From Roseicella frigidaeris (GTDB lineage Bacteria > Pseudomonadota > Alphaproteobacteria > Acetobacterales > Acetobacteraceae): a DNA stretch of 64,000 nt. Location: NCBI RefSeq assembly GCF_003258945.1, contig NZ_QLIX01000012.1:1-64000 (forward strand), read 5' to 3'. Shown here one piece after another: positions 28,030 to 44,432 of this stretch (its first letter is position 1; each line of letters starts with the position of its first letter). A program made the position numbers and the translations under genes. The notes below the pieces were generated by a model. It did no database searches. It worked only from the letters and a program-made list of their open reading frames with translations, and was not told where the DNA came from.

Positions 28030-28060
28030 CCCCGCGAAGCCGCGCAGCGGCTTCGCGGGG
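28030..28060 (-). terminator. Hairpin terminator of pgi
   Basis: A perfect 14-bp inverted repeat, CCCCGCGAAGCCGC (28030-28043) and GCGGCTTCGCGGGG (28047-28060) with a 3-base loop, begins two bases after the pgi stop codon. There is no U-run, as often seen for GC-rich genomes, so termination strength is uncertain. Confidence 0.55.
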
Positions 28061-29724: not shown

Positions 29725-29916
29725 GTCGTGAACCCCCATGCTCACCCGCATAGAGAGCAGATCGCGGCCGGGCATGCACGCCCCGGCCTGCGTTCCGCCG
29801 GGGCCTTCGGGTGCGGGGATGATCGGAGCTGGACCCTGTCCCGCCGCGGCTGGCTGTGACGCCCCCGGGGCGGTGGAGCCGCCGCAAAGCCCCGCGGCGG
29901 AGTTGGGGGCGTTCCT

Positions 29917-30021
29917 AGAGCAGATCCCGATCAGGTGGACTCACCTGATCGGGTGAAGATGCTCTGAAAACAGGAGCCTAGGGCGCTTCCCGTGAACCAG
30001 TGTTTACGGGAAGCGCCCTAG
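29917..30021 (+). repeat. Composite two-hairpin element, copy A
   Basis: Hairpin 1: outer arms AGAGCA (29917-29922) and TGCTCT (29960-29965), and inner perfect 12-bp arms CCCGATCAGGTG (29926-29937) and CACCTGATCGGG (29942-29953) with a GACT loop. A 12-base spacer containing AAACAGG follows. Hairpin 2: 16-bp arms CTAGGGCGCTTCCCGT (29978-29993) and ACGGGAAGCGCCCTAG (30006-30021) with a 12-base loop GAACCAGTGTTT. The right arm contains the stop codon of the M16-like gene. Architecture matches the element at 44328-44432. Confidence 0.8.
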
Positions 30022-31370
30022 AGCCCGACCGGCTGCCCCGCCACCACCACCGAGAGCGCCTGCGGCTGCAGCACCCGGGCCGCGACCTGGGCGAGGCGCG
30101 GGGTCGGGATGGCCCGCAGCCGCTCCGCCCGGCCGGCCAGCCAGTCCAGCGGCCGGCCGTTCTGCCGCAGGGTCAGCAGCGATTCCGCAACGCGGCGGCT
30201 GTCGCTGAACTGCAGCGGCAGGGAGCCGGTGAGGTAGGCGACGGCATCCTCGCGCTCGGCCTCGGTCGGGCCCTCCGCCGCCATGCGGGCCCATTCCTCG
30301 CGGGTGACGGCGAGGGTCTCGGCGACGCGGGCATTCTCGGTGGCGACCGAGCCGACGATGGTGCCGCGGCGGAACATCACGTCGAGCCCGGCGCCGATGC
30401 CATAGGCGAGCCCCCGCTGCTCGCGCACCGAATGCATGAGGCGGGAGGCGAAGCCGCCGCCGGCCAGGATGCGCAGCACCACCTGCAGCGCCTCCCAGTC
30501 CGGATCCTCGGCTGGCAGCCCCTCCTGGCCGAAGACCACGGCGGATTGCGGCGAGACGACCGGCAGCACCGCCTGGCCGAAGGCGTGGAAGGGCGGCAGC
30601 GGGGCGACCGCCGGCGGCGCGCCCGCGGGCAGGCCGGCGAAGAGCCGGGCGATGACGCCCTTCAGCGCCTCCGGCGTGATCGCCCCGGCGGCGCAGACCA
30701 GCAGCCCCTCGCGCCGCAACTGGCGGGAGAGCGCGGCGCGGATCGCCTCCGCCGGCACCGCGGCCAGGCTCTCGGCGGTGCCACCCGAGGGGCGCCCGGC
30801 CGGATGGCCGGGAAAGGCACGCGCCCAGAAGCCGCGCCCGGCCTGGCCACGCGGCGTCTCCAGGCTGCGGCGGGCGGCGGCGGCGGCGCGGGCCCGCACC
30901 CGCTCCACCGCATCGGCATCCAGCCGGGGCTCGGCCATGGCCAGGCGGCCGAGGCGAACCGCCTCCGGCAGGGCATCGGCCAGGGCGCGGAAGCTGCCCT
31001 CGAAATTGTCCCGCTCCACCCCGAAATTCAGGCTGATCGCCTCGTCGCGCAGGGCGTCGCCGAACTCGACCGCGCGCAGCGCGCCGGCCCCCTCGGTCAG
31101 CAGCGCCGCGGCCATGGCGACCGTGCCCTCCTGCCCCTCCGGATCGAGCGCGGCGCCACCGCGCCAGGACCAGGAGAGGGCCACCACCGGCACGGCATGG
31201 TCCTCGACCAGCCAGGCGGAGACCCCCTCGGCCTCGACCGTCTGGATCGGCAGCGAGAAGGCAGCCGGCGCCTCCGGCCGCGGCAGCGGGGCGTCGCGTC
31301 CCGGCGCCGTGGCGCCGCCCTCGGCCGCGAGCACGCGCCCCGGCCAGCGGGCCCCGAGGGGCGACCTCAT
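30018..31370 (-). CDS. M16 family peptidase-like protein, inactive-type subunit
   Basis: A 450-residue M16 (pitrilysin/processing peptidase) homologue without the zinc motif HxxEH: the corresponding region reads ALDPEGQEGTVAMAAALLTEGAG. The rest of the fold is recognisable (GGGFASRLMHSVREQRGLAYGIGA in the second half). Such proteins usually pair with an active M16 subunit to form a heterodimer, and that partner is encoded immediately upstream with a four-base overlap (31367-31370). Its TAG stop lies within the right arm of an intergenic hairpin element, which suggests the end of the gene was set by the element. Confidence 0.88.
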   Translation of the reverse strand: MRSPLGARWPGRVLAAEGGATAPGRDAPLPRPEAPAAFSLPIQTVEAEGVSAWLVEDHAVPVVALSWSWRGGAALDPEGQEGTVAMAAALLTEGAGALRAVEFGDALRDEAISLNFGVERDNFEGSFRALADALPEAVRLGRLAMAEPRLDADAVERVRARAAAAARRSLETPRGQAGRGFWARAFPGHPAGRPSGGTAESLAAVPAEAIRAALSRQLRREGLLVCAAGAITPEALKGVIARLFAGLPAGAPPAVAPLPPFHAFGQAVLPVVSPQSAVVFGQEGLPAEDPDWEALQVVLRILAGGGFASRLMHSVREQRGLAYGIGAGLDVMFRRGTIVGSVATENARVAETLAVTREEWARMAAEGPTEAEREDAVAYLTGSLPLQFSDSRRVAESLLTLRQNGRPLDWLAGRAERLRAIPTPRLAQVAARVLQPQALSVVVAGQPVGL

Positions 31371-32794
31371 ATCCGCCGCTCCGGCGCGGCCACGCCCTCG
31401 GGCAGCAGCCAGCCCGTCGTCGCCGGCGCCTGGCCGAGCACGGCCCGCGCCGCCTCGGTCACCTGCGCCAGGGTCACGGCGCGCAGATGCCGCGGCCAGA
31501 ACTCCACCACCTCGAGCGGCAGGCCGGAGGCCAGCGTCGAGCCCAGCATGCGCGGCGCGGCGCCGATGCCATCGAGGGCGAGCAGGGCCCCGGCGGTGAG
31601 CTGGCGCTGGGCGCGGGTGAGCTCGGCCTCGGTCGGCCCCTCCTGCAGCAGCCGCGCCACCACCGCGTCGATCGCCGCCTCGACCTTCTCCGGCGTCACG
31701 CCCGGCTGCGGCAGGGCGGAGAGCAGGAAGGCGGTGACGCCGACGGAATCGCTGTCATAGGAGGCGCTGGCGCCGACGCAGAGCGAGGTCTCGACCAGGG
31801 CCTGATGCAGCCGGCTGCCCGGGCCGCCGCCGAGCAGATGCGCCAGCACCTCCAGCGCCCAGGCCTGGTCCCGGTCGCCCCAGGTCAGGCTCGGCGCCAT
31901 GGCGGCGCGCAGGAAGCTCGCCTCCCGCACCCCCGGATCATGGCGGATGAGGCGCGGCTCGGCCGCGGTGGCGGCCGGCGCGGCGCGGTCGCGCGGGGTG
32001 ACGGCGCGGCTCGGGACGCCGCCATAGTATTCCTCGGCCAGGGCCCGCACCCGCTCCGGCCGGGCATCGCCGGTGACGACCAGCACGGCATTCCCCGGCG
32101 CGTAGCGGCGGCCGTAGAAATCGAGCAGGTCGTCGCGGCTGATGGCGCGGATCTCGTCCTCCCAGCCGATGATCGGCCGGCCCCGCCAGTGCTGCCGGCC
32201 CCAGAGGGCGGCCTCGAATTCCTCCCAGAACCGGGCGCGCGGGTTGCTGTCGGTGCGCTGGCGCCGCTCCTCCAGCACCACGGCGCGCTCCGGCTCCACC
32301 GTCTCGGGCGGGATCAGCGGCCCGGCGAAGCGGTCCGCCTCCATGCGCATGACCAGCGGCAGGCGCGAGGCCTCGACGGTCTGGTGATAGGCGGTGACGT
32401 CGCGCGAGGTGAAGGCGTTGTCCTGCCCGCCCTCCCGCGCCACCACCAGGGAGAGCTGGCCGGGCGGCACGTTGCGGCTGCCCTTGAACATCATGTGCTC
32501 GAGGAAATGCGCGGTGCCGCTGCGCCCGGCCGGGTCCTCGCCGGCGCCCGCGGCGTAGAAGAGGTAGTGGCTGACCACCGGCACGCGGCGGCTCTCGGCA
32601 TGCACCACGCGCAGCCCGTTCGGCAGGGTCCAGGTCGTCGCCCCGAAGAGCGGCCGGTCGCCGGCGAGCTTGGCCCGGTCTTCCGGCGCCGGCTGCACCG
32701 GCGGGGCGGCGAGCCCCGCCCCGGCGGGAAGGCTGAGGGCCACCGGCAGGGCGGCGGCCGAGGCGATGGTGCTGCGGCGGGTCACGGGCGACAT
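31367..32794 (-). CDS. M16 family zinc peptidase, active subunit
   Basis: A 475-residue peptidase with the zinc-binding HFLEHMMF (HxxEH) about 90 residues in. The downstream third ligand Glu is expected in ETVEPERAVVLEE, and GGGPGSRLHQALVE lies in the second half. A signal sequence is present (twin-arginine-like TRRSTIASAAALPVALSLPAGAGLA), so the enzyme is probably periplasmic. It likely degrades peptides or processes proteins together with the inactive partner downstream. The start MSPVTRRS at 32794 begins the signal; longer readings lack one. The BamF-like lipoprotein gene precedes it by 64 bp. Confidence 0.92.
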   Translation of the reverse strand: MSPVTRRSTIASAAALPVALSLPAGAGLAAPPVQPAPEDRAKLAGDRPLFGATTWTLPNGLRVVHAESRRVPVVSHYLFYAAGAGEDPAGRSGTAHFLEHMMFKGSRNVPPGQLSLVVAREGGQDNAFTSRDVTAYHQTVEASRLPLVMRMEADRFAGPLIPPETVEPERAVVLEERRQRTDSNPRARFWEEFEAALWGRQHWRGRPIIGWEDEIRAISRDDLLDFYGRRYAPGNAVLVVTGDARPERVRALAEEYYGGVPSRAVTPRDRAAPAATAAEPRLIRHDPGVREASFLRAAMAPSLTWGDRDQAWALEVLAHLLGGGPGSRLHQALVETSLCVGASASYDSDSVGVTAFLLSALPQPGVTPEKVEAAIDAVVARLLQEGPTEAELTRAQRQLTAGALLALDGIGAAPRMLGSTLASGLPLEVVEFWPRHLRAVTLAQVTEAARAVLGQAPATTGWLLPEGVAAPERRI

Positions 32795-32858
32795 GCCCCA
32801 GCATGTGGGAAGAACCCCGCCGGGCGCAAACCCGCCATGCGGCCCACCCCGCCGGCGC

Positions 32859-33446
32859 TCAGAAGATGCTCTCGAACAGCCGGGTGACCGGGTTGCCGCT
32901 GGTGGCGCGCTGGATGATGGGCGTCTCGCCCTCCGTCGCCTCGCGCCCGAGGGCGGCATTCTCCCGCAGCCGCTGGGATTCGCGGCGGGCATCGAGGGCG
33001 GTGCCCGGCGGCTCCGGCGCCTTCCAGAAGATCAGCCGGTCCACCAGGCCGCGATCCGGCTGGTCGAGCTTCAGGCTTTCCTCATCGACGCGGCGGCGGA
33101 TGTCCTGCCCGACCGGCCGGCCGGCCTGGGAGAGCAGCGCCGATTCGCCCGAGCTCGGCGCCGCGGCGCCGGTGCTGGGGGCGAGGACGGCGCCGGGGGC
33201 GAGGGCGGTCTCCGCGGCGAGGCGGGGCGAGAGCTCCTGCGGCCGCGTCGCGCCGGGGCGGGGCACCGGCAGCTCGCCGAGCGAGGGCGGCATGGACAGG
33301 GGCGCGCGGGTCGTCACCTGGAACTCGTCCGGCGCGTCGCGGGTGAAACCGAAGGTGCGGGCCGTATCCCCGCCGCAGCCCGGCAGCAGGCCGAGCGCGA
33401 CCAGCGCGGGAAGGACGGGCAGGAGACGGGGACGACGCGGGCTCAT
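32859..33446 (-). CDS. DUF3035 lipoprotein, BamF-like component of the BAM complex
   Basis: A 195-residue lipoprotein. The signal peptide ends in the lipobox LLPGC at about residue 24, so the mature protein starts with lipid-modified Cys and is expected on the inner face of the outer membrane. The following DAPDEFQVTTRAPLSMPPSLGELPVPRPG is the hallmark of DUF3035, the family that includes BamF of Caulobacter. The C-terminal part (NPVTRLFESIF) is conserved by memory. It is next to the M16 pair, an arrangement I recall in related genera, where lspA often precedes it; lspA is absent here. Confidence 0.8.
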   Translation of the reverse strand: MSPRRPRLLPVLPALVALGLLPGCGGDTARTFGFTRDAPDEFQVTTRAPLSMPPSLGELPVPRPGATRPQELSPRLAAETALAPGAVLAPSTGAAAPSSGESALLSQAGRPVGQDIRRRVDEESLKLDQPDRGLVDRLIFWKAPEPPGTALDARRESQRLRENAALGREATEGETPIIQRATSGNPVTRLFESIF

Positions 33447-33616
33447 GGCGCCTGCTGTGTAGACCAGAACGTCGCGGGCAGGAACGGGCATCGCGCGCTT
33501 TCGCCGGCCGGGCCGGGACGGCGCCGGCAGAGGGGCCAGCAGGGGGGGCCGGCCAGGGAAGGATGGGCGGCCTCGAGGCGGCGCGCCGGGCGGGGCCGCG
33601 GCGGGGCCCGCCTGAT

Positions 33617-33708
33617 GCCTCCGAGGCGTCGCCTCGGAGGCCGCGGCGACACCGCCGGGCCGGCGGGCAGCCGGGATTCCCGCGGCACCGCCTCGCGGCG
33701 CCGCGGGA
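33617..33708 (-). terminator. Two hairpins downstream of the glycosidase gene
   Basis: TCCCGCGGC (33678-33686) pairs with GCCGCGGGA (33700-33708) ten bases past the glycosidase stop. A second perfect 11-bp hairpin, GCCTCCGAGGC (33617-33627) with GCCTCGGAGGC (33631-33641), follows. Together they probably end transcription. The remaining 270 bp between 33447 and 33717 hold no gene. Confidence 0.5.
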
Positions 33709-33717
33709 CGGCGGATC

Positions 33718-34650
33718 TCAGGCCCAGTCGTCGTTCGTGGCGAGGGCCTTGTAGGCGTCGTAGACGGCCTTGTGCTCGCCATTCGGCCCGACCACGCCGA
33801 ACCAGTTCTCGCTGTCACCGGTGTTACCGCCGCGATCCTGGTAGGAATAGTACATGATGGGCCCGACCCAGGACTCATGGTGCGCCAGGTCGACCGCCTC
33901 GCGCAGCGCCTGCGCCTGCTGGTCCTGGGAGACCGAGTTGTAGCCGCGCGTCGGCGAGCCGAACTCGGTGATCCAGACCTGGGTGTCGGCATCGCCGTTC
34001 CGGACCATGGTGTCGCGGATGCCGTCTTCCATGATCTGCCAGCCGTTCCAGGAATTGGAGCTGCTCGGCATCTCCGGCCAAGTATAGGCGTGGTAGCCGA
34101 CCGCATCCATGGAGTCCGCGGCGCCCTGGGCATACATGCCCTTGAGGAAATCGACCGCGCCGATATGGCCCCAGCCGGTCTCGGGGGCCGGCGACAGGCC
34201 GCCGGAGATGACCGTGTCGCCCGAGCTGACGCTCTTGATGGCCGAATAGGCGGCCTTCTGCAGGCTCATATACTCGCTGACGCCCATCTTCAGGTTGGGC
34301 TCATTGCCGAGCTCCCAGTAATTCACCGAATCACCGAAATGCTCGGCCGCCGCCTTGGCGAATTTCGCGTAGCCGTCGGCGTCGATGCCGCCCCAGCGCG
34401 GCGTCAAGGAAAGCTCGGCCACCACCTTCAGGCCGTGTTCCTTGGCCGCCGACACCATCCGATCCAGCTCGGACCAATCATAGCCGCCATTGCGGTTCGG
34501 CTGGATCGTATCCCACCAGAAGTTGGTGCGGATCCAATCGGCCCCGAGGTTCTGATAATCGGACATCTCGGCGTTCATTGCCGAGGTCCCCGGATTCACC
34601 AGCTCGCCGAGCGGCGTGGAAAAGCCCAGCTGACCAGACGGTACCGCCAT
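33718..34650 (-). CDS. GH39/PslG-like glycoside hydrolase
   Basis: A 310-residue (beta/alpha)8 glycosidase of the clan A type. The acid/base Glu117 lies in YWELGNEPN (111-119) and the nucleophile Glu229 in VWITEFGSPT (225-234). This pair and the NFWWDTIQPNRNGGYDW opening resemble PslG and other GH39-like hydrolases of exopolysaccharides. No N-terminal signal peptide is seen, and the C-terminus is short and acidic (ATNDDWA). Secretion by a C-terminal signal, or a cytoplasmic role, are both possible. By eye its codon choice is less GC-rich than that of its neighbours, and an AT-rich patch lies upstream, hinting at separate ancestry. Confidence 0.78.
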   Translation of the reverse strand: MAVPSGQLGFSTPLGELVNPGTSAMNAEMSDYQNLGADWIRTNFWWDTIQPNRNGGYDWSELDRMVSAAKEHGLKVVAELSLTPRWGGIDADGYAKFAKAAAEHFGDSVNYWELGNEPNLKMGVSEYMSLQKAAYSAIKSVSSGDTVISGGLSPAPETGWGHIGAVDFLKGMYAQGAADSMDAVGYHAYTWPEMPSSSNSWNGWQIMEDGIRDTMVRNGDADTQVWITEFGSPTRGYNSVSQDQQAQALREAVDLAHHESWVGPIMYYSYQDRGGNTGDSENWFGVVGPNGEHKAVYDAYKALATNDDWA

Positions 34651-35324
34651 GAATTGATCCCCTCGTTACTTGAAATGCCCACTAATACCTGGCGGTTGCA
34701 AATCGGCCGCAGACCGACGCACGCGCGGGCAGATTGCCGCAGGTGCAGGCCGCCAGGCCCCGCCGGAGACCGGCAGGCGTGGTTCGGTTGGCCGGCGGCC
34801 CCTTGTCGCTCAGCGACTTCGGGCCCGCACGGAGGACTGGACGAGGCAGCTCGCCCGGACGGGCAAGCAGCTGGCCTGCGGCGCCGATGGACGGCTGACG
34901 CTGGCGCTTGCAGTGATGCCGGCTCGAACATTCAATGTCAATGCATGAAATTGCTCAAGAGCAGTATTTATTGATACAGACGCTTCCGATTCCGATACCC
35001 GGCAGTGTTTATGTTTTTGACATTTATTCTTGTCGTTTTGCATTGCACAGAAGTACGGAACCGACAATTTTGCTATATCGCAACATCAGGCGCCGCCAAA
35101 GGGGCCGCGCGCGGGAACATGCCGCCCGGATGATCGCCGCATCTCAGGATGACGCCGGCTGCACCGCCGCTGCGGAGTGCCTTGAAGCCCCGAGGGTCCC
35201 CGGTCCTGCCGGGGCCCGGGTGGCCCGCCCGCGGGCGGGGCCGGGGCCAGGCCCCGTCCACCGGCCCGTGGGCCGGAGGAGGGGCAACAGGCCATGGACG
35301 GGGGCGTCGCCGCCCCCGCCCGGA
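34651..35324. other. Long intergenic region with an AT-rich patch
   Basis: No convincing gene in 674 bp. The part from about 34930 to 35090 is strikingly AT-rich for this genome. On the minus strand, reading towards the glycosidase, TTGACA occurs at about 34936-34941 but no good -10 box is found at the right spacing. A TTG-started frame of 85 codons (34810-35067, minus) lacks a ribosome site and any recognisable content. The stretch nearest 35250 is GC-rich with overlapping short palindromes, likely the terminator of the aldolase gene. Confidence 0.5.
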
Positions 35325-36086
35325 TCAGCCGCCGCGCGCCTGCTTCACCGCCGCCTTCGCGGCATTGACCATCAGCCCGACCTCGTTGCTGATCGTGACC
35401 AGCTTGAAGCCCATCTGGATCATGCGGTTGGCATAGGCCGCGCTGCCATTGTGCAGGCCGGCAGCGATGCCGCGCTTGCTGGTCTCGGTCAGCAGCTTCT
35501 CGTAGATCTTGAGGATGAAGGGATCCTCGACGTCGAGCTTCGGCTCGAGCCCGTAGGAGAAGCTGAGGTCCGAGGGGCCGACATAGATGCCGTCGATCCC
35601 CGGCACGTCGAGGATCGCCTCGATGTTCTCGATGGCCTGCTTGGTCTCGATCATCGGGATGACGAGGATGTTGTCGTTGGCGGTCTTCTGGTAGCCGCCC
35701 GCCTCGCCGTAGACGCCGGCGCGGATCGGGCCGTTGCTGCGCGTTCCCTGCGGCGGGTACTTGCTGTACTGCACGAGGTTGGCCGCCTCCTGCGGCGTGT
35801 TCACCATCGGGCAGATCACGCCATAGGCGCCGGCATCGAGCACCTTGCCGATGATGCCCGGCTCGTTCCAGGGCACGCGGACCATCGGGGTCACCGGCGC
35901 GCGCGCCATCCCCTGGAAGCAGGCGACGCAGGAGAGGTAGTCCTGAACGCCGTGCTGCATGTCGACCGTCACGCTGTCCCAGCCGGCCTGGGCGTACATC
36001 TCCGCGCTGAAGGCGTTGGGGATGGCGAGCCATCCGTTCACCACGGCCTTGCCGGCCTTCCACGCTTCCTTCACCTGGTTCGCCAT
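35325..36086 (-). CDS. HpcH/HpaI family aldolase (4-hydroxy-2-oxo-heptanedioate aldolase-like)
   Basis: A 253-residue class II, metal-dependent aldolase of the HpcH/HpaI family, cleaving or forming 4-hydroxy-2-oxoacids to pyruvate plus an aldehyde. Seen are VTVDMQHGVQDY (catalytic His), PMIETKQAIENI (metal Glu), GIDGIYVGPSDLSFSYG (metal Asp) and SNGPIRAGVYG. The start MANQVKEAW follows GAGGAGAGG at good spacing; a 53-codon extension upstream is spurious. It is a single gene here, so the pathway served cannot be told. Confidence 0.9.
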   Translation of the reverse strand: MANQVKEAWKAGKAVVNGWLAIPNAFSAEMYAQAGWDSVTVDMQHGVQDYLSCVACFQGMARAPVTPMVRVPWNEPGIIGKVLDAGAYGVICPMVNTPQEAANLVQYSKYPPQGTRSNGPIRAGVYGEAGGYQKTANDNILVIPMIETKQAIENIEAILDVPGIDGIYVGPSDLSFSYGLEPKLDVEDPFILKIYEKLLTETSKRGIAAGLHNGSAAYANRMIQMGFKLVTISNEVGLMVNAAKAAVKQARGG

Positions 36087-36318
36087 CGCGTTCCTCTCCT
36101 CTGCGCCACGCCATCCTGCCGCTGGGCCGCCGCCTGTCCCATCGGGGCGCCGGCCGGCACGGGATGGCCGGAGGCTAGACCAGATCGTCCGGAGCCGAAA
36201 CCTGCGGTGGCGGACCGGGCGCGCTGCCTGCCCTGCGACTGTCACCCGCCGGCAAGCCGGCCGTCATGCGGCGATGATCCATCTCTGGCAGCCTTGGACC
36301 GGCCTGCGGGAGACGGTG

Positions 36319-36570
36319 ATGCACCTTCGGACCCTGGTGATCGAGCGCGACGACCCGGCCGAGCCCGGGCTGCTGCTGCGCCGCTACGCGCGCATCGGCG
36401 TCTGCTGGGAGCCGACGATCGGCAATTGGGCCTGGATGCGGTTCAACGCCGCCGGCCAGCAGGTGGGCGCCGTGACCGGCCCCTTCCCCGCCAGCGAAGC
36501 CGCCTTCGAGGATGCCCAGGCGCGGCTTGGCGGCGAATGGGAGGCGGAGGCGGTGCCCATAGAGGAATGA
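36319..36570 (+). CDS. Small hypothetical protein
   Basis: Not recognised. An 83-residue soluble, acidic protein (MHLRTLVIERDDPAEPGLLLRR..., ending EAEAVPIEE) with a Trp-rich middle (CWEPTIGNWAWMRF). The ATG at 36319 has GGGAG seven bases upstream; an ATG at 36274 would add 15 residues but lacks a ribosome site. Codon usage matches real genes. It points towards the response regulator gene, ending 25 bp from it. Confidence 0.6.
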   Translation: MHLRTLVIERDDPAEPGLLLRRYARIGVCWEPTIGNWAWMRFNAAGQQVGAVTGPFPASEAAFEDAQARLGGEWEAEAVPIEE

Positions 36571-36594
36571 TCCCGCGGCCCGTCCGGGCAGCGC

Positions 36595-37212
36595 TCAGGT
36601 CAGCCCCAGCTCGATCGCCATGCGCATGAGGTCGGAGGTCCGGGTGACGCCGAGCTTCGCCTTGATCTGGGTGCAGGTGTTGGCCACGGTCTTGTAGCTG
36701 ACGGCCAGCACGGTGGCGATCTCGGCCAGGGACTGCCCCTCCCCGAGCAGGCGAAGGATCTCGAGATCGCGGCCGGTGAGCTGCTCCACGGGGTCATCGG
36801 TGGTCGCCGCCCGCAGGGCGAGTTCCTGGGCGATCTCCCGCTCGATGTAGCGGCCGCCCTCGCCGACGCGCCGCACCGCCTCGATCACCTCCTCCGGCGC
36901 CGCCCGCTTGCTGAGATAGCCCGCCGCGCCGGCCCGCAGCGCGCGCGCCGCGTGGAAGGCCTCGGCATGCATGCTGAAGACGATGATCTTCAGGCTCGGC
37001 TGCTCGAGCAGCAGGCGCCGCAGCAATTCGAGGCCGCCGAGCTCCGGCAGGCCGAGATCGAGCACGACGATCTCCGGCTGCGCCGAGCGCAGCATGGCGA
37101 GCGCCTCCCGGCCGGTGCCCGCCTCGCTGACCTCGATGCCGTGGAAGCCGCCCAGCAGGCGGCGCAGCCCGGCCCGGATGACCGCATGGTCATCGACGAG
37201 GAGCAGCTTCAT
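36595..37212 (-). CDS. NarL/FixJ-type response regulator
   Basis: A 205-residue two-domain regulator. The receiver (1-120) has Asp7/Asp8, the phosphoacceptor Asp52 in VVLDLGLPE and Lys in GYLSKRAAP. The LuxR-type helix-turn-helix (about 140-205) reads LTGRDLEILRLLGEGQSLAEIATVLAVSYKTVANTCTQIKAKLG. It would bind DNA as a dimer when phosphorylated by the kinase encoded upstream, with which it shares a four-base ATGA overlap. Targets are unknown; the polysaccharide-type genes on the other side are candidates. Confidence 0.94.
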   Translation of the reverse strand: MKLLLVDDHAVIRAGLRRLLGGFHGIEVSEAGTGREALAMLRSAQPEIVVLDLGLPELGGLELLRRLLLEQPSLKIIVFSMHAEAFHAARALRAGAAGYLSKRAAPEEVIEAVRRVGEGGRYIEREIAQELALRAATTDDPVEQLTGRDLEILRLLGEGQSLAEIATVLAVSYKTVANTCTQIKAKLGVTRTSDLMRMAIELGLT

Positions 37213-38561
37213 GCCGCGGCCGGAGGCCGCAGCGCCTCCGCCCGTTCCGATCGCGGCAGCCGCGCCGTGACCTGCAGGCCGCGGCCAGCCGGGCCGGTCA
37301 CCACCTGCAGGCCGCCGCCGCGCGCCGCGAGGCGATCGCGCAGACCGGCGAGGCCGAAGCCGGGCACCGCGGTCGCGCTCAGCCCGACGCCGTCATCCGA
37401 GATGCAGGTGATCACCTGCTCCTCCGGTCCGGTCCGGATCGATATCTCCACCTGGCCCGGCTGGCCGTGGCGGACCGCATTGGTCACGGATTCCTGCACG
37501 ACGCGGTACACCACCTCCTTTGCCGCCTCCTCCATGCCGTCCTCCTCGACCTCGACATCGAGGGTGAAGGTGATGCCCGGCCGCCGCGCCTGCCAGAAGG
37601 CGACCAGGTTGCGCAGCGCCGGCGCCAGGCCGATCTCGACCGGGCTGGCCGGCCGCAGCCGGCCCAGCATCGACCGGACATGGCCCTGCATGTGGCTGAC
37701 CGATCGGCGGATCGCCGCCGCGCTGTCCGGGATCTCGGCATGGTTCCCGACCTGCGCCGCCGCCTCGATCGCCGCCGCGTCGACCGCGACGCAGAACAGG
37801 AAGGGCCCGATCTCGTCGTGCAGGTCGCGGGCGAGCTCGGCGCGCTCCTCCTCCTGCACGGCGACGAGTTGCTCGTGCAACCGGCGATTATGCCGTTCGG
37901 CGCGCCCGAGCCGCTCCATCATGGCGTTGAAGCCCTCCGTCAGCCGGACCAGCTCCGGCGAGCCGGCCGGCTTGAGGCGGACCGCGAATCCCTCCGATCC
38001 CACCGCGGCCAGCGCCGCCGACAGATCCTCGAGCGGCCGCAGGGCGCGGCTGACGACGAAGCCGACCAGCGCGGCGCTGAGCGCGCAGAACAGGGCGAGC
38101 GCCGCCAGCCCGTCCCGCAACTGTCCCCAGACCTCGGCCACCTCGTTCCGCGGATCGGCCTCGAGAAGCATGCGCCCGGACCTGTCGCCGAATTCGAGCG
38201 GCACCTCCACCGGCGGCAGCGACGGCGCCACCAGCGCCACCAGCCATCCCGGCGCCGGCTGCCGCGGCTCGAGCGGCACCGAGGCGACTCGCATCTGCCC
38301 CGCCTCGTCGACCAGTCGGGCCCGCAGATGCCGGTTGCCGTCGAAGAGATGCACCTGCCGGTCGGGACCCGGGGCCGCGGCCGCCGGGGCGCGGCGGTCC
38401 GCCTCGCCGTTGCGCACGGCCTTCTCGCCATTGGCCAGCGCCGCCTGCATCTCGGTGCGCACGGATTTCGTCGCGGTCCAGCCCGCCGAGAGCCCGCCCA
38501 CGGCGAGGCTGACCAGCAGCACGACGAGGATGGAAGTGATCAGGCGGACGCGCAGCGACAT
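37209..38561 (-). CDS. Sensor histidine kinase (HisKA_3 type)
   Basis: A 450-residue membrane kinase. The first transmembrane helix is at about 8-28, followed by a periplasmic sensor of roughly 120 residues. A second helix at about 150-172 leads into a HAMP-like linker, and the HisKA_3 dimerisation domain has the phospho-acceptor His248 in ELARDLHDEIGPFLF. A GHKL ATPase follows, with VQESVTNAVRHGQPG as the N-box, DDGVGL as the G1 box and GFGLAGLRDRLAARGGGL as the G2 region. It belongs to the NarX/UhpB group and phosphorylates the overlapping response regulator. The sensed signal is unknown. Confidence 0.94.
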   Translation of the reverse strand: MSLRVRLITSILVVLLVSLAVGGLSAGWTATKSVRTEMQAALANGEKAVRNGEADRRAPAAAAPGPDRQVHLFDGNRHLRARLVDEAGQMRVASVPLEPRQPAPGWLVALVAPSLPPVEVPLEFGDRSGRMLLEADPRNEVAEVWGQLRDGLAALALFCALSAALVGFVVSRALRPLEDLSAALAAVGSEGFAVRLKPAGSPELVRLTEGFNAMMERLGRAERHNRRLHEQLVAVQEEERAELARDLHDEIGPFLFCVAVDAAAIEAAAQVGNHAEIPDSAAAIRRSVSHMQGHVRSMLGRLRPASPVEIGLAPALRNLVAFWQARRPGITFTLDVEVEEDGMEEAAKEVVYRVVQESVTNAVRHGQPGQVEISIRTGPEEQVITCISDDGVGLSATAVPGFGLAGLRDRLAARGGGLQVVTGPAGRGLQVTARLPRSERAEALRPPAAA

Positions 38562-38909
38562 GGACGAGACTCTCCCGCGCCCATCCTAAGCGGATCGGCG
38601 CCGCCTTGGCATCGCGCTCCGTCGCGGCGCGCGGCTGGAATCCGCCGAGGCACCGGCCGGCCGCGCGCACCAGGCGATGCCGCGGGACCGGGGTGGCCGG
38701 AGATCGGGAAGAATTCCCCGCGAAATCGGGAAATCGATCCATGGGGGCATCTTCCGGCTACCCCGTATGATCCTCATCGGGGGAAAGGACACTGCCATGA
38801 AGAGGCGGCCAGCATCGCCCTGCGTCGGAATCGTCCATACCGTCACACCAGCGGGCCGCGTCGCGGGGCGCCGCATCCAGCGGTCGCCGGCGGCGCGTCG
38901 GCAGCGGCG
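38562..38909. other. Intergenic region with a possible Arg-rich leader ORF
   Basis: 348 bp between divergent genes. An ATG at 38797 behind GGGGAAAGGA opens a 38-codon frame (MKRRPASPCVGIVHTV..., very Arg-rich) that ends at 38913, overlapping the acyltransferase ATG as ATGA. CCCCG and CGGGG (about 38763-38783) could form a weak hairpin before it. The small frame has a good ribosome site, while the acyltransferase has none of its own, so the leader may couple its translation. Confidence 0.4.
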
Positions 38910-39554
38910 ATGACCGCGGCGCTGCTGTTCGGCATCGGCTCGCCCCTGGTGGTCGATGTCGAGGAGAGCCTGCACCGGGCCGGGCTGCGCGTGGCGGCCG
39001 GCATCCACAATTGCGGCGGGCGGCACTGGCTGCCCGAGGGCATCGCGGTGCTCGCGCCGGAGGCGTTGTCCGGCGCGCTGCTCGACCTGCCCTATCTCGT
39101 GCCGCTCTTCACGCCGCGGCACCGGCGCCTGGCGGCGCGGCAGGCCGCGAGCCTCGGCCTGCGTCACCCGCTCTCGCTCATCGACCCGAGCATCGCCGCG
39201 CCGCGCCGCCTCGAAATCGGGCCCGGCTGCTACCTGAATGCCGGGATCAGCCTCGGCAGCAACAGCACGCTCGGTGCCTTCGTGCTGGTCAACCGCGGCG
39301 CCAGCATCGGGCACCATGCCAGGCTCGGCGCCTTCGTCTCCATCGGGCCGGGCGCGGTGCTGGCCGGCGGGGTGACGATCGGCGAGGGCAGCATGGTCTG
39401 CGCCGGCGCCACCATCCTGCCCGGCGTCACCATCGGGGAGGATGCAGTGGTCGCCGCCGGCGCCGTGGTGACGCGCGACCTGCCGGACGGCCACCTCGCC
39501 GCCGGCAACCCGGCGCGCCACATCCGCCACGACAACGGGCTGAAGGCGGGCTGA
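38910..39554 (+). CDS. NeuD/PglD-like sugar O- or N-acyltransferase
   Basis: A 214-residue protein with an N-terminal Rossmann-like domain (LLFGIGSPLVVDVEESLHRAGLRVAAGI). It is followed from about residue 95 by a left-handed beta-helix of hexapeptide repeats (LEIGPGCYLNAGISLGSNSTLGAFVLVNRGASIGHHARLGAFVSIGPGAVLAGGVTIGEG, read in short blocks). This is the build of NeuD/PglD/PerB acyltransferases that acetylate nucleotide-linked sugars from acetyl-CoA, with the His of IGHHARLG as the likely base. It precedes the double glycosyltransferase gene by six bases, pointing to surface polysaccharide or glycoprotein decoration. Confidence 0.86.
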   Translation: MTAALLFGIGSPLVVDVEESLHRAGLRVAAGIHNCGGRHWLPEGIAVLAPEALSGALLDLPYLVPLFTPRHRRLAARQAASLGLRHPLSLIDPSIAAPRRLEIGPGCYLNAGISLGSNSTLGAFVLVNRGASIGHHARLGAFVSIGPGAVLAGGVTIGEGSMVCAGATILPGVTIGEDAVVAAGAVVTRDLPDGHLAAGNPARHIRHDNGLKAG

Positions 39555-39560
39555 GGCGGC

Positions 39561-41891
39561 ATGGGCAGGCCCGTCGTCCATCTCTACACCATCTGCTGGG
39601 ACGAGGCCGACATGCTCGGCTTCTTCTTCCGGCACTACGATCCCTGGGTCGACTGCTTCGTCGTCTACGACGACGGCTCGGCCGATGGCTCGCTCGAGAT
39701 CCTGCGCGCCCATCCCAGGGTCGAGCTGCGCCGCTTCGAGCGCCGCGTCGCGGAGTCCTTCGTGCTCTCGCACCAGGCCATGCAGGACGAGGCCTGGAAG
39801 GAGAGCCGCGGCCAGGCCGACTGGGTGGTCATCACCGCGATCGACGAGCATCTGCACCTGCGCGGACGCGGGATGGCCGACTACCTGGCCGAGCAGGGGC
39901 GCCGCGGCACCACGCTGATCCCGGCGCTCGGTTTCGACATGCATGCCGCCGCCATGCCGGACGACCATGGCTTGCTGGTCGAGCGGGTCACGCGGGGCCG
40001 GCCGCGCCCGGCCTTCAACAAGCTCAGCCTCTTCGATCCGAACGCCATCCGGGAAACCGGCTTCGGCCCAGGGCGACATGCCGCCAGGCCGCTCGGGCAT
40101 CTGCGCCTGCCCGAGCGGGACGAGGTGATGCTCTGGCACTACAAGCATCTCGGCTTCGAGCGGAATGCGGATCGCGAGGCGAGCCAGGCGGTGCGGCTCG
40201 GCACGCTCGACCGGCAACGCGGCTACGGCCAGCACTATCTCCAGGGGCGGGCGGCGCTGCGGCAGTTCTGGGACGTGATGGAGAGCGAGGGCCGCGACCT
40301 GGCCGCGATGGATTTCGATCCGGCGCGGGCGGCGGCGCAGCCGCTGTGGTGGCGCGCCCCCGGCTTCGCCCCTGCTCCCGCCCCTGCTCCCGCCCCTGCT
40401 CCCGCCGCCGCGCCGACCGTCTCGGTGCTGGTCAAGTGCTACAACCACGCGCCCTATGTCGGGCAGACCATCAAGAGCCTGCTGGCGCAATCCTTCCAGG
40501 ATTTCGAGATCGTCGTCACCGATGACGGCTCGACCGACGGCACCGCCGAGGTGGTGCGGGGTTTCGACGATCCGCGCATCCGGCTGGCAAGGCTGCCGAC
40601 CAACCAGGGCATCTCGGCGGCGATGAACGCGACCATCGCGCGCGCCCGCGGCCGCTACCTTGCCATCCTGAACTCGGATGACTGGGCGCTGCCCGAGCGG
40701 CTGCAACGGCAGGTCGATTTCCTCGACTCGCATCTCGAGGTCTCGCTGGTCTTCGGCCTGCCCCGGCCGGTGGACGATGCCGGCCGGCCCGCCGCGGCCT
40801 ATAACGACTTCGACGCCGCCTTCGCCCTGCCGGACTTCTCGCGCCGCTCCTGGCTGCGGCGCTTCTTCTATCGGGGCAATTGCCTTTGCGCCCCGACCGC
40901 CATGATCCGGCGGGAGGCCTATGACGCGGCCGGCGCCTATGATGTCCGGCTGACCAACCTCCAGGATCTCGACATGTGGATCCGGATGCTGCTCGCCGGC
41001 CACCGGATCCATGTGCTGGCGGAGGCGGTGACGGCCTTCCGCATCCGCGGCCAGGCGGCGAATGCCAGCGCGCCCCGCGCCGACAGCCTGTTGCGCACCC
41101 GCTTCGAGACCTCGCGCATCCTGCGGCATTTCACCACGCTGCCGCCCGCGGTCTTCGAGGAGGTCTTCGGCGGCGAGGCGGTGGAGCAGGCGGAGCCGGA
41201 GGCGCCGGTGCCGCTGCGCATCGCCGAGCTGGCGCGGCGGCACCCGGCCATCGAGTACCAGCATTTCGCGGTCGAGACCTATTTCGAGCATGCGCGGGAC
41301 CCGGCGCAGATCGCGCGGCTGCGGGTCCTGGCCGGCGAGTTGGATGCCTTCGGCAGCGCCGCGCTCGGCGAGCGCGATTCGCATCTGGCCCGCATCGCCG
41401 GCGAGTTGCGCAACGCCCAGGGCTGCATCGCCGAGCTGGAGCAGGCGCAGGCCGAGATCGCCGCCGCCGCCGCGGCCTATCGCAGCACCGCGGAGGCCTT
41501 GCGCCGCGGCCTGGACGAGCGGGAGGCCGAGATGGCGGCGATGACGGCAAGGCTCGCCGAACGGGATCGGGAGCTGGGGGCGATGGCGGCGGGGCTCGCC
41601 GCACGGACCCAGGGCCTGGCGGCGGCGCAGGCGGCGCTCGCGGCGCAGGAGCATCGCCAGGCAGCGACCGAGGTGGCGCTCGCCGCCGCGCAGGAGGCCG
41701 TGTCGCAGATCCGGCAGAGCACCTGCTGGCGGGTGACGGCGCCGCTGCGCGTCGCGGGCCGCGCGCTGCCTCCGCCGCTCCGCCGGGCCTTGCGGCGCGT
41801 GCTTGGCGCGATGCGGCGGCAGGGCATCCCGCGGCTGGGCGTCTCGCCACCGGCCGCCGGCACGGGTCGCCTCGATACCGCCCGGCCATGA
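39561..41891 (+). CDS. Double-domain glycosyltransferase with C-terminal coiled coil
   Basis: A 776-residue fusion. Residues 1-265 form a Glyco_tranf_2_4-type domain (ICWDEADMLGFFFRHYD, VVYDDGSADGSLEIL). An alternating Ala-Pro linker at about 268-284 comes from a 12-bp repeat. Residues 285-530 form a classical GT2 domain (VSVLVKCYNHAPYVGQTIKSL, VVTDDGSTDGT, LNSDDWALPERL, NLQDLDMWIRML). From about 590 to 725 an Ala/Glu-rich coiled coil leads to STCWRVTAPLR, a motif common at the tail of rhamnan- or O-chain-type glycosyltransferases. It probably adds two sugars to a surface glycan acylated by the preceding enzyme. Confidence 0.86.
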   Translation: MGRPVVHLYTICWDEADMLGFFFRHYDPWVDCFVVYDDGSADGSLEILRAHPRVELRRFERRVAESFVLSHQAMQDEAWKESRGQADWVVITAIDEHLHLRGRGMADYLAEQGRRGTTLIPALGFDMHAAAMPDDHGLLVERVTRGRPRPAFNKLSLFDPNAIRETGFGPGRHAARPLGHLRLPERDEVMLWHYKHLGFERNADREASQAVRLGTLDRQRGYGQHYLQGRAALRQFWDVMESEGRDLAAMDFDPARAAAQPLWWRAPGFAPAPAPAPAPAPAAAPTVSVLVKCYNHAPYVGQTIKSLLAQSFQDFEIVVTDDGSTDGTAEVVRGFDDPRIRLARLPTNQGISAAMNATIARARGRYLAILNSDDWALPERLQRQVDFLDSHLEVSLVFGLPRPVDDAGRPAAAYNDFDAAFALPDFSRRSWLRRFFYRGNCLCAPTAMIRREAYDAAGAYDVRLTNLQDLDMWIRMLLAGHRIHVLAEAVTAFRIRGQAANASAPRADSLLRTRFETSRILRHFTTLPPAVFEEVFGGEAVEQAEPEAPVPLRIAELARRHPAIEYQHFAVETYFEHARDPAQIARLRVLAGELDAFGSAALGERDSHLARIAGELRNAQGCIAELEQAQAEIAAAAAAYRSTAEALRRGLDEREAEMAAMTARLAERDRELGAMAAGLAARTQGLAAAQAALAAQEHRQAATEVALAAAQEAVSQIRQSTCWRVTAPLRVAGRALPPPLRRALRRVLGAMRRQGIPRLGVSPPAAGTGRLDTARP
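40370..40408 (+). repeat. 12-bp tandem repeat encoding an Ala-Pro linker
   Basis: The unit GCCCCTGCTCCC occurs three times in a row with slight end variation, encoding (Ala-Pro)n between the two glycosyltransferase domains. Such units change copy number by slippage in steps of four codons, altering linker length without shifting frame. Confidence 0.65.
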
Positions 41892-41975
41892 GGCCGGCCG
41901 GCGGCACAGCCACTGCCCACGGCCGGCCCAGCGCCGGCGCGGGCGAGCCAGGAAGCACCGGGGGGAGGATGCGAC

Positions 41976-44327
41976 GTGCATAGACGAGGTCCGACAGGCG
42001 AATGGATCGCGGCCGGCCGGGCCACCGCGTTGGCAGCACTGCTGGCCATGCCGGGCGGCGCCGCGCTGGCGCAGAGCGCGACACCGGTGACCGAGCTGCC
42101 GACCGTCGAGGCGGTGGGCACGACGCCCCTGACGGCGACCGGCCTGCCGCGCGACCATGTGCCCGGCAACCCCCGCAGCCTCTCCGCCGCCGACCTCTCG
42201 CGCGACGGGCCGCCCAACCTGGTCGACAACCTGGTGCGCCTCTCGGCCGGCATCGCCGTCAACGACACCCAGGGCAGCCCGCTCGCGCCGGATGTGAGCT
42301 ATCGCGGCTTCACCGCCTCGCCGCTGATGGGCACGCCGCAAGGCCTGGCCGTGTACCAGAACGGCACCCGCATCAACGAGGCCTTCGGCGACACGGTGAA
42401 CTGGGACCTGATCCCGTCCATCGCCATCCGCAATGTCGATCTGGTCGGCAGCAGCCCGCTCTTCGGCCTCAATGCGGTGGGTGGCGCGCTCAACCTCCGC
42501 ATGAAGACCGGCTTCGACAGCCCGGGCGGCCGGGTTGATATCTCCGGCGGCTCCTTCGGCCGCATCGGCGTCGCGGCCGAGTACGGCAAGCAGGTCGGCG
42601 ATTTCGCGGCCTATCTGGCGATCGAGAGCCTGAACGAGGATGGCTGGCGCAACGTCTCGCCCTCCCGCGCGAAGCGTCTCTACGGCGATATCGGCTTCCG
42701 CGGCGAGCGATCGACCCTCAACCTCTCGATCGGCGCCGGCAGCACCGCCATCTCCGGCAACGGCCCGACGCCGCTGCAGATCCTCTCGACCGACCGCAAC
42801 GCCGTCTTCACCTATCCGGACCGCACCTACAACCGGATGCAGATGCTGCAGCTCCGTGGCACCTACGAGCTGGCGGCGAATTGGAGCATCGAGGCGAACG
42901 CCTATGTCCGCACCTTCCGGCAGCGGACGCTGAACGCCGATATCGGTGAGTTCGAGGGCTGCGACGACGACGACTTCGCCGGCCTGCTCTGCTTCGAGGA
43001 CGGACCGCCGGTCACCGCGCGCGGCGGCGGCACCGTCAGCGCCGACATCCTCGGCGGCGGCGTGCCGGGCGTGGTCAACCGCACCGGTACCAACACGACC
43101 GGCGCCGGCGGATCGGCGCAGATCGTCTCAACCGAGCCGATCTTCGGCCTGCCCTCCCGCGTGGTCTTCGGCGTCAGCTACGACCATGCGGATACCGACT
43201 TCTACGGCAACACCGAGCTCGGCGTGCTGTCGCCGACGCGGACGGTCGGCAATCTCGGGGTGTTCGTGAACTCGCCCGACGGCGGCATCGCCGATGTCCG
43301 CCTCAACTCCACCAACAATTACTGGGGCGTCTACGGCACCGGCACCATCGATCTCGCGCCGCGCGTCTCGGCCATGATCGGCGGGCGCTTCAACAACGCC
43401 GATATCCGCCTGCGCGACCAGCTCGGCACGGCGCTGAACGGCGACCATACCTATTCGCGCTTCAACCCGACCGCCGGCCTGACCTGGCGCGCCCTCGACA
43501 CCGTCACCGCCTATGTCAGCTATGCCGAGGCGAACCGCGCCCCGACCCCGGCCGAGCTCTCCTGCGCCGATCCGCTGATCCCCTGCACGCTCGGCGCCTT
43601 CTTCCTCGCCGACCCGGCCCTGAAGCAGGTGGTCAGCCGCACCTGGGAAACTGGCGTGCGCGGCACGCTGCCCAGCGCATGGATCGGCGGCCGCACCACC
43701 TGGAACATCGGCGTCTTCCGCACCGACCTCTCCGACGACATCCTGCTGGTGCAGAGCGAGATCCAGGGGCGCGGCTATTTCCAGAATGCCGGCGACACGC
43801 GGCGGCAGGGGATCGAGGCCGGTCTCGCCTGGCGCAACGCCCGCTGGGCGCTCGGGCTCGACTACGCCTTCATCGACGCCACCTTCCGCACGGCGCAGCG
43901 CCTCCCGAGCCCGAACCACCCGGATGCGGGGGCCGACGGCGCCATCCCCGTCGAGCGCGGCGACCGCATCCCCGGCATCCCGCAGCACCGCGTGCGGCTC
44001 GATGCGGAATGGCGGGCGACGGATCGCTGGCGGATGGGCGGCACGCTGATCTTCAACTCCGACCAGTATCTCCGCGGCGACGAGGCGAACCTGCTGAAGC
44101 CGCTCGCCGGCTATGCGGTGGTGAATCTCCGCACCGCGGTGACGCTGATGCCGGGGATCGAGCTCTATGGCATCGTCCGCAACCTGTTCGACCAGCGCTA
44201 CTCGAATTTCGGCACGCTCTACGGGCTGGACGCGGCGAGCGCGCTCAACATGAACCTGACCGATGCGCGCACCGTGGTGCCCGGCATGCCGCGCGCCTTC
44301 TATGGCGGCCTGCGCTTCACCTTCTAG
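41976..44327 (+). CDS. TonB-dependent outer-membrane receptor
   Basis: Encodes 783 residues. The start is a GTG at 41976 behind GGGGGAGG; signal peptide to about residue 32 (ALAALLAMPGGAALAQ). A TonB-box-like stretch and plug domain follow (LVDNLVRLSAGIAVND, YRGFTASPLMGTPQGLAVYQNG, IRNVDLVGSSPLFGLNAVGGALNL). A 22-strand beta-barrel then ends in FYGGLRFTF with terminal Phe, as needed for BAM recognition. It imports an iron chelate, vitamin or carbohydrate; neither a regulator nor a periplasmic partner is adjacent, so the ligand is open. A double hairpin follows its stop codon directly. Confidence 0.94.
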   Translation: MHRRGPTGEWIAAGRATALAALLAMPGGAALAQSATPVTELPTVEAVGTTPLTATGLPRDHVPGNPRSLSAADLSRDGPPNLVDNLVRLSAGIAVNDTQGSPLAPDVSYRGFTASPLMGTPQGLAVYQNGTRINEAFGDTVNWDLIPSIAIRNVDLVGSSPLFGLNAVGGALNLRMKTGFDSPGGRVDISGGSFGRIGVAAEYGKQVGDFAAYLAIESLNEDGWRNVSPSRAKRLYGDIGFRGERSTLNLSIGAGSTAISGNGPTPLQILSTDRNAVFTYPDRTYNRMQMLQLRGTYELAANWSIEANAYVRTFRQRTLNADIGEFEGCDDDDFAGLLCFEDGPPVTARGGGTVSADILGGGVPGVVNRTGTNTTGAGGSAQIVSTEPIFGLPSRVVFGVSYDHADTDFYGNTELGVLSPTRTVGNLGVFVNSPDGGIADVRLNSTNNYWGVYGTGTIDLAPRVSAMIGGRFNNADIRLRDQLGTALNGDHTYSRFNPTAGLTWRALDTVTAYVSYAEANRAPTPAELSCADPLIPCTLGAFFLADPALKQVVSRTWETGVRGTLPSAWIGGRTTWNIGVFRTDLSDDILLVQSEIQGRGYFQNAGDTRRQGIEAGLAWRNARWALGLDYAFIDATFRTAQRLPSPNHPDAGADGAIPVERGDRIPGIPQHRVRLDAEWRATDRWRMGGTLIFNSDQYLRGDEANLLKPLAGYAVVNLRTAVTLMPGIELYGIVRNLFDQRYSNFGTLYGLDAASALNMNLTDARTVVPGMPRAFYGGLRFTF

Positions 44328-44432
44328 CGCGTGATGGCTTGCGGCGGCTCCGCCGAAAAGCCTGCATCACGCGGCCAAACAAGGGCCTGGACCATGATCC
44401 GCGAGCCTGTATCAGCGGATCATGGTCCAGGC
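44328..44432 (+). repeat. Composite two-hairpin element, copy B
   Basis: Hairpin 1: CGCGTGATG (44328-44336) pairs with CATCACGCG (44365-44373), with inner pairs GGCTT/AAGCC and CGGCGG/CCGCCG. The spacer GCCAAACAAGG follows. Hairpin 2: 18-bp arms GCCTGGACCATGATCCGC (44385-44402) and GCGGATCATGGTCCAGGC (44415-44432) with a 12-base loop GAGCCTGTATCA. It starts at the TonB receptor stop and ends 50 bp from the convergent small gene, so it may terminate both. It is the same design as 29917-30021 with different stems. Confidence 0.8.

Follow-up and report, generated by a model that had tools for sequence, protein, structure and literature searches.

Two distant two-hairpin elements of Roseicella frigidaeris are probably copies of a CTAG-targeting miniature element mobilised by an IS630-family transposase

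The window analysed here, a stretch of 64,000 nucleotides (positions 1 to 64,000 of contig NZ_QLIX01000012.1, assembly GCF_003258945.1) of Roseicella frigidaeris, carries an element of two hairpins at two distant sites, copy A at 29917-30021 and copy B at 44328-44432. What kind of element is this and how did it reach both sites? An original prediction made from the letters alone had suggested a structured mobile or RNA element and not a simple terminator. Our data indicate that both sites are probably copies of a miniature inverted-repeat transposable element (MITE) of the alphaproteobacterial CIR (CcrM-associated intergenic repeat), Bru-RS and RIME kind, which is mobilised by IS630, targets CTAG and duplicates TA. 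Such two-arm repeats are already known in related bacteria; the link to IS630 and CTAG is what we propose here.

Anatomy of the two copies

By sequence and folding the order of parts is identical at both sites, exactly as predicted: hairpin 1, a linker of 11-12 bases containing AAACA, and hairpin 2 with a perfect stem of 16 or 18 bp and a 12-base loop. The stems differ almost wholly and yet pair; the two copies are members of two subfamilies (A and B) of one design. The parts are as follows.

29917-30021, + strand: copy A, two-hairpin element (sequence)
29915-29918: CTAG bounding copy A on the 5' side (sequence)
29917-29965, + strand: hairpin 1 of copy A, outer stem AGAGCA/TGCTCT and inner 12-bp stem (folding)
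29938-29942: GACTC, a GANTC site, within the hairpin-1 loop of copy A (sequence)
29966-29977, + strand: 12-nt linker of copy A, GAAAACAGGAGC, its AAAACA mostly conserved in A1 (sequence)
29978-30021, + strand: hairpin 2 of copy A, 16-bp perfect stem, loop GAACCAGTGTTT (folding)
29978-29981: internal CTAG opening hairpin 2 of copy A, which the terminal CTAG closes
30018-30021: 3' CTAG of copy A; on the - strand 30018-30020 is the TAG stop of an M16 peptidase gene
44328-44432, + strand: copy B, two-hairpin element (sequence)
44324-44327: CTAG bounding copy B on the 5' side, with the TAG stop of a TonB-receptor gene at 44325-44327
44328-44373, + strand: hairpin 1 of copy B (folding; pairs counted in 27 B copies)
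44374-44384, + strand: 11-nt linker of copy B, GCCAAACAAGG (sequence)
44385-44432, + strand: hairpin 2 of copy B, 18-bp perfect stem, loop GAGCCTGTATCA (sequence, folding)
44427-44430: CCAG, the 3' boundary tetranucleotide of copy B (sequence)

Folded as RNA, copy A reached -70.4 kcal/mol and copy B -68.2 kcal/mol (z of -11.4 and -7.4), and 0 of 200 shuffles was as good. Among the perfect stems of the window (loop 3-14), the hairpin-2 stems of the two copies rank second and third in length, and a perfect stem of at least 12 bp was absent from 18 of 20 two-mer-block shuffles of the window and occurred once each in the other two. No Rfam family reached its gathering score within the window. An intrinsic-terminator pattern was sought at both copies and found at neither, and thus a simple terminator was rejected, as the original prediction had it.

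A dispersed family with two subfamilies

The genome (5.82 Mb in 87 contigs) holds many further copies. BLAST searches yielded at least 64 matches to copy A (best 40 of 215 candidates scored) and at least 47 to copy B (best 40 of 99 candidates scored), some of these rows being the palindrome read backwards. A covariance model built from 47 A copies (R1) found at least 148 matches at E<=0.01 among the best 150 of 3112 candidates from a first look at this genome; a few of these rows may also be reversed palindromes. Profile searches covered 121 stretches of the own genome (the window and 120 others picked for carrying matches) and 60 stretches of 20 kb from a sister species (G003). Here, we found 191 non-overlapping matches in the own stretches, 132 of them full-length (98 A-type, 34 B-type), and 83 in the G003 stretches, 55 of them full-length (16 A, 39 B). 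Each window copy is therefore one of many in its own subfamily, and the idea of two one-off elements does not hold. The 187 full copies measure 84-106 nt. The element is thus short, dispersed, present in many copies and too short to encode a transposase, as a MITE should be.

The original prediction would have been refuted had no further element of this layout turned up, and the 132 and 55 full-length copies show that many exist. Partial matches occur as well. The 5' part alone (hairpin 1, mostly with the linker) was matched 33 times in the own and 20 times in the G003 stretches and the 3' part alone 7 and 4 times; 19 and 4 matches fitted neither the full nor a partial class. Shortened forms consisting of hairpin 1 and the linker end at the internal CTAG (L137, 1493-1661; L180, 1519-1590), and a match of only 75 nt covers the entire model (L178, 1471-1545). 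Half-elements may move on their own.

Ends and target site

With the flanks aligned, both subfamilies were seen to open (5') with CTAG-AGC and to close (3') with CTAG. CTAG was present at the 5' end of 58 of the 98 own A copies (CTGG in 18, CCAG in 7) and at the 3' end of 62; for the own B copies these numbers were 12 and 11 of 34, for the G003 A copies 7 and 3 of 16 and for the G003 B copies 23 and 19 of 38. CTGG and CCAG were the commonest other forms. These tetranucleotides were scored in 186 of the 187 full copies, one at a stretch edge being dropped. Our script picks the best CTAG-like match near the expected place and leans to CTAG, and therefore a control at an offset of 30 bases was added: CTAG stood at 99 (5') and 94 (3') of 185 ends versus 6 and 1 at 30 bases further out. 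Outside the elements CTAG is rare in the own stretches, with 77 occurrences in 469,550 bp. The altered ends of own A copies are mostly CTGG or CCAG (25 of 40 at 5', 29 of 36 at 3'), as if CTAG were being lost through transitions in this genome.

The terminal inverted repeats by which a MITE is recognised are present. Many Rhizobiales copies read CTAGAGCATTTCC...GGAAATGCTCTAG, the own B copies carry CTAGAGCGTGATC / CTAGACCATGATC, and those of the own A copies are imperfect (TAGAGCAGATCC / TAGGGCGCTTCC). At junctions of adjacent elements the tetranucleotide followed C-T/C-A/G-G in 49 of 59 pairs, a loose form which chance would often give; several 3'-3' adjacent pairs have exactly CTAG in common. 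When TA was kept at both ends, CTAG stood twice in 56 copies, an outer base differed in 7 and an inner base in 1, and none of these copies had the same odd tetranucleotide at both ends. This pattern favours a TA duplication, with G...C as the element's own bases, over a duplication of CTAG (p ~0.07, sign test, small numbers).

Filled and empty sites

At the place of copy A no element was found in the four other genomes of the genus (G001-G004; for G004 the right side only, its left neighbour being different), and the copy B position was likewise without one in G003 and in the related receptor genes of G001 and G004. The models R1 and R2 found none at these loci, save three weak R2 matches elsewhere in L200. 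The copy A locus could not reveal a target duplication, since its left flank fails to align with the relatives.

Of 141 element clusters of the own genome, 31 could be matched on both sides to the G003 stretches. Sixteen of these sites were well aligned (both flanks at least 79% identical over at least 120 bases), and 13 of the 16 were empty in G003; 3 were filled, one of them with a different type. In the other direction, 10 of 73 G003 clusters were matched and 2 of 6 well-aligned sites were empty in the own genome. Nine junctions were inspected, and the empty site was CTAG twice, CCAG twice, CTAA, CTAT and CGTC once each and unreadable twice. At L264/L180, G003 carries CTAG-element-CTAG where the own genome has a single CTAG, and at L082/L270 two tandem elements of the own genome, bounded by CTAG on one side and by CCAG on the opposite side, face a single CTAG in G003. 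The empty site is a single CCAG at L270/L054, CTAA at L242 and CTAT at L222. In one case (L140, 1532-1636, versus L240, 2359-2368) an older B element is interrupted by an A element, at the CCAG with which hairpin 2 of the former begins. Read against the empty site, a target-site duplication is thus present, as in a MITE. Since orthologous sites lack the element and show a single CTAG-like sequence where filled sites have two, the mobile half of the proposed "mobile or RNA element" is supported; the RNA half was neither demonstrated nor refuted.

Gene context and stop codons

The genes next to the two copies are the following.

30018-31334, - strand: peptidase M16 gene abutting copy A (start picked by the gene caller; the open frame reaches 31370)
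28063-29691, - strand: phosphoglucose isomerase gene flanking copy A opposite the peptidase gene
42048-44327, + strand: TonB-dependent receptor gene abutting copy B

Genes were called with a purpose-written codon-usage script. Called genes flanked 133 of the 142 own elements that measure 86 nt or more on both sides, and 157 element-free gaps of at least 60 bp served as controls. None of the 133 lay inside a called gene. Convergent, co-directional and divergent gaps held 42, 73 and 18 of them, versus 17, 88 and 52 among the 157 element-free gaps. A TAG stop was used by 52 of 57 genes ending within 8 bases of an element versus 31 of 100 other neighbours, and over all called genes and all matches by 70 of 81 abutting genes versus 51 of 358 others. 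This excess explains why both copies had been seen to touch a stop codon, and indeed the stops are the TAG inside the CTAG that bounds each element.

An open reading frame shortened by an insertion could also end in the element's own TAG; the genes abutting the two window copies stop at an unchanged position in the relatives. For the copy A gene, the four relatives, all lacking the element, have an aligned stop of TAG (G002, G003, G004) or TGA (G001). The stop of the copy B gene is TGA in all five aligned sequences (one from G003, one from G001, three from G004). The original prediction had both copies facing the same way, which is true of the window coordinates (both +) and not of the abutted genes: copy A is antisense to the M16 peptidase gene and copy B follows the TonB-receptor gene in sense orientation.

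Candidate transposases

Each of the five genomes of the genus has transposases of the IS630 family (PF13358). In G002 an insertion sequence (L278) with HTH_Tnp_IS630 and DDE_3 proteins in two frames has the ends TA-GAGCGTGATCC and TA-GAGCGTGATTC, both inside CTAG. Its end is identical to the 5' end of the B element, which begins CTAGAGCGTGATC, over TAGAGCGTGATC. By sequence, the element and a TA-flanked insertion sequence of the IS630 family thus have a terminal inverted repeat in common, in G002 and outside the own genome. G002 also carries three weak B-like R2 matches in a row (L200, 3801-4128; 22-29 bits), possibly an array of decayed copies in the genome that harbours L278. In the own genome the IS630 copy L284 has the ends TA-GAGCCATTCCC / TA-GAGCCGTTCCC and L293 has TA-GAGCGGTTTCC at both ends, so that both begin TA-GAGC; IS630 ends beginning TA-GAGC and TA-GAGT were found at L283 (G002) and L292 (G004). 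The 3' ends of A elements read TAGGGCGCTTCCC and many Rhizobiales ends TAGAGCATTTCC. This style of ends recurs in this IS630 group. Ends were sought with crude scripts around 58 transposase loci, most of which gave no convincing ones, and the IS630 loci were re-examined; for most of the 21 IS630 loci no ends were found. From the likeness of the ends we infer movement by an IS630 transposase, for which these sequences are candidates.

In the mechanism that we propose, an IS630-family (Tc1/mariner-like) transposase would act in trans on a non-autonomous MITE of ~100 bp with a duplicated target. The enzyme would recognise ends starting with TA-GAGC and the like and would insert at CTAG, duplicating TA. 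Because the element starts with G and finishes with C, this duplication would read as a second CTAG. With CTAG so rare outside the elements, TAG stops would be one obvious place for it, and an insertion there would leave the protein intact, so that most copies would come to lie behind genes and many would start or end on TAG. Inside the element a conserved A-rich linker (AAACA) joins the two hairpins, and because hairpin 2 is itself bounded by CTAG, new copies would also land in or beside old ones. The anatomy of the element thus offers a concrete, testable answer on mobility (target CTAG, TA duplication, IS630-type ends), and many copies starting at stop codons would be explained without an RNA function, CTAG insertion being harmless there.

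A mover of the IS5 family instead of IS630 appears unlikely. Brucella IS711 is an IS5-family element that inserts at TA, and an IS5-type sequence of the own genome (L279, 88-899; DUF4096 match) begins TTA-GAGCC at both ends. Beyond GAGC, however, its end GAGCCTGTTTGAGAATGG shows no likeness to those of the MITE, in contrast to the IS630 end GAGCGTGATCC; the comparison of IS5 ends covered 30 loci and used only crude scripts. On its short contig this sequence, with the ends TTA-GAGCCTGTTTGAGAATGG, adjoins an IS630-type transposase.

Arm pairing and RNA function

The hairpins are not only stable but covary. In 47 A copies 94.8% of the cells were paired and 19 of 37 pairs showed changes on both sides. 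Every measure lay above all 500 shuffles, and sliding the partner by one base dropped pairing to at most 43.4%. Compensated changes were found in 8 of 12 inner hairpin-1 pairs, in 0 of the 6 outer-stem pairs and in 11 of 19 hairpin-2 pairs. In 27 B copies 93.8% of the cells were paired; the number of double-change pairs (6, reached by 80 of 500 shuffles) and of further pair types (21, reached by 65 of 500) was unexceptional, and for the cells with double changes and the covariation score 0 of 500 shuffles was as high. Among 34 nearest-neighbour pairs of A copies we counted 9 complementary double changes and 78 single changes, where random placement of the same substitutions predicts 2.3 same-pair hits of any kind. 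Four of the 9 were double transversions, seen in pairs of copies with just 3 to 7 differences between them, and some of the 9 lay on pairs varying between subgroups. Seven nearest-neighbour pairs of B copies gave 2 complementary double changes versus 0.7 expected and 24 single changes. The excess of double changes would fit occasional arm-to-arm correction; selection, inheritance or exchange between copies are alternatives.

These data bear on a second alternative, according to which the element persists because it acts as RNA in 3' untranslated regions (stabilising mRNA, offering a site to RNase III or blocking transcription in both directions), its mobility being old or incidental. Stable covarying hairpins, mostly behind genes and in convergent gaps, would suit such a role, as would the excess of G.U over A.C mismatches in hairpin 2 of B copies (30 to 9) and a sub-threshold likeness to RF02600 (E of 3.5e-4 for its best match, described below). 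In the other stems the ratio of G.U to A.C was 22:12 (A hairpin 1), 29:23 (A hairpin 2) and 12:11 (B hairpin 1), and counted by columns 35 versus 26. The elements showed no preferred orientation either, neither in co-directional gaps (35 same, 38 opposite) nor relative to the gene with the abutted stop (25 same, 32 opposite). Thus, there is no convincing asymmetry that would speak for selection at the RNA level. Furthermore, the location at gene ends is explained by CTAG, and the many well-aligned own sites that are empty in the sister species also argue against this alternative, which we regard as improbable. Covarying hairpins behind genes need not mean a regulatory RNA.

A REP/REPIN system with a RAYT (Y1 tyrosine transposase) as its mover, which the high copy number and the palindromic, two-hairpin, intergenic nature might suggest, can practically be dismissed: no Y1_Tnp match was found in the own genome, G001, G002 or G003, only G004 has any (with one marginal match to copy A), and the ends are CTAG or near forms, paired at hairpin 2, and not the unpaired GTAG or CGTC tag that the available part of PMC3733652 describes for REPs.

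Evidence at odds with IS630-driven mobility

Several observations weigh against movement of the element by an IS630 transposase with duplication of TA. As to the sites, the junctions at L069 and L180 (as filled) were unreadable and one empty site was CGTC; at L137 a CTAG at the 3' end of the filled site stands against CTAA in the empty one, and a TA duplication needs a later substitution there. Relatives have TGA as the stop that copy B abuts here, so that a CTAG before insertion is not seen in them, and the outer-base comparison of TA with CTAG duplication is based on eight copies only. As to the mover, the best match of the terminal repeats, L278, sits in G002, where BLAST with copy A found no copy. 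The IS630 ends of the own genome are poorer matches to those of the MITE, the reading frame of L293 looks broken, and for a further own IS630 locus (L274) no matching ends were found. The IS5-type sequence L279 (contig C64) also begins GAGCC, so IS630 is only the probable transposase family. In addition, the table in the available part of PMC2229807, its footnote unseen, lists the terminal inverted repeat of CIR as absent. Finally, the arms are paired more faithfully than a MITE needs, for which transposition alone is insufficient.

Relationship to described repeats

The closest described class is CIR. According to the accessible part of PMC2229807, CIR of Caulobacter and Brucella are ~110 bp long and intergenic and consist of two inverted-repeat arms and a linker, with GANTC at the loop of one arm and TA at the termini; their target duplication is given as unknown, the two-arm repeats are abundant in Caulobacter and related Alphaproteobacteria, and their mobility mechanism is still to be found. 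The present element is alike in length, in its two linked arms, in its intergenic location and in the TA at its termini. GANTC is present in the hairpin-1 loop region of 74 of the 187 full copies (35 of the 98 A and 12 of the 34 B copies of the own genome, 3 of the 16 A and 24 of the 39 B copies of G003; background one per 1259 bp), copy A having it and copy B not. The element differs in its host, one of the Acetobacteraceae, and in that terminal inverted repeats, target and filled and empty sites are seen here, CIR being compared by description only. Our literature search, with most subscription literature outside its reach, found no link of these repeats to IS630 or CTAG.

Bru-RS1 and Bru-RS2 of Brucella, related repetitive palindromic elements of 103 and 106 bp in one locus (available part of PMC10800456), agree in length, again by description only. 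RF02600 (Brucella sRNA CI27) is alike in its consensus hairpin 1, its aaCaAa linker and a hairpin 2 opening with cuaaaGC, as judged from the alignment with a Shinella copy, and we infer that this family contains a Bru-RS element. Its gathering score of 59.8 bits was not reached: the Shinella copy (L092) scored 33.6 bits and two matches of the own genome 28.8 and 26.1 bits. Copy A gave only 27.9 bits as a match cut by the stretch end, which was lost at E<=0.01 once the stretch was widened, and copy B was unmatched. RF02600 also scores below its cut-off in 1 of 14 control genomes (Caulobacter vibrioides).

RIME1 of Rhizobium (Osteras 1995) reportedly measures ~108 bp and has two palindromes, a layout that is alike by description, and the present element type was found in Rhizobium, Shinella and Martelella. 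The nearest mechanistic precedent, by analogy, would be RUP of Streptococcus pneumoniae, a repeat of 107 bp proposed to be moved by IS630-Spn1 (available parts of PMC2229807 and PMC3049150). RUP resembles the present element in length, in a TA-containing target and in a terminal inverted repeat similar to that of an IS630-family insertion sequence, but it lacks the two-arm layout with linker, as do the repeats other than CIR in the portion of PMC2229807 available to us, and it has another host. That all alphaproteobacterial two-arm repeats of the CIR, Bru-RS and RIME type might be IS630-driven, CTAG-targeting colonisers of TAG stops, their arms kept complementary by arm-to-arm correction (template switching, folded single strand) and not by RNA selection, is a tentative and rather doubtful generalisation.

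Occurrence in other genomes

BLAST of copy A against 29 genomes gave no match in 24. Within the genus it matched 31 times in G001, 30 times in G003, once and marginally in G004 and not in G002, and another genus of the family (G015) gave 8 matches. R1 matched at least 14 of 289 genomes of the class (own included) at E<=0.001, with eleven families by their labels; this is a low bound, strict filters and 13 candidates per genome having been used. The repeat is also present in eight plasmid records (two of Shinella, two of Komagataeibacter, one each of Martelella and Rhizobium, and two labelled Roseateles), and five of these loci scored 70, 70, 61, 34 and 22 bits with R1. A pattern of the linker and the start of hairpin 2 was found in 33 genome-contig stretches, 32 of them titled with rhizobial genera or 'Rhizobiales' and one with Neoroseomonas alba, which carries a near-identical copy (L105). 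The relatives in Shinella, Martelella, Rhizobium, Komagataeibacter and Neoroseomonas have layout, linker and ends in common, and many printed rhizobial copies span CTAGAGC to GCTCTAG.

Other hairpins of the window

The longest perfect inverted repeat of the window, 22 bp with a loop of 9, lies at 13949-14001 inside a called gene (12780-14648, + strand). Just behind the phosphoglucose isomerase gene there is a G+C-rich hairpin with the core CGAAGCCGCGCAGCGGCTTCG (28030-28060), and a hairpin with a similar core stands beside another site (L270 after 11487; L054 after 361). The CGAAGCCGCGCAGCGGCTTCG-core hairpin may be a second dispersed hairpin.

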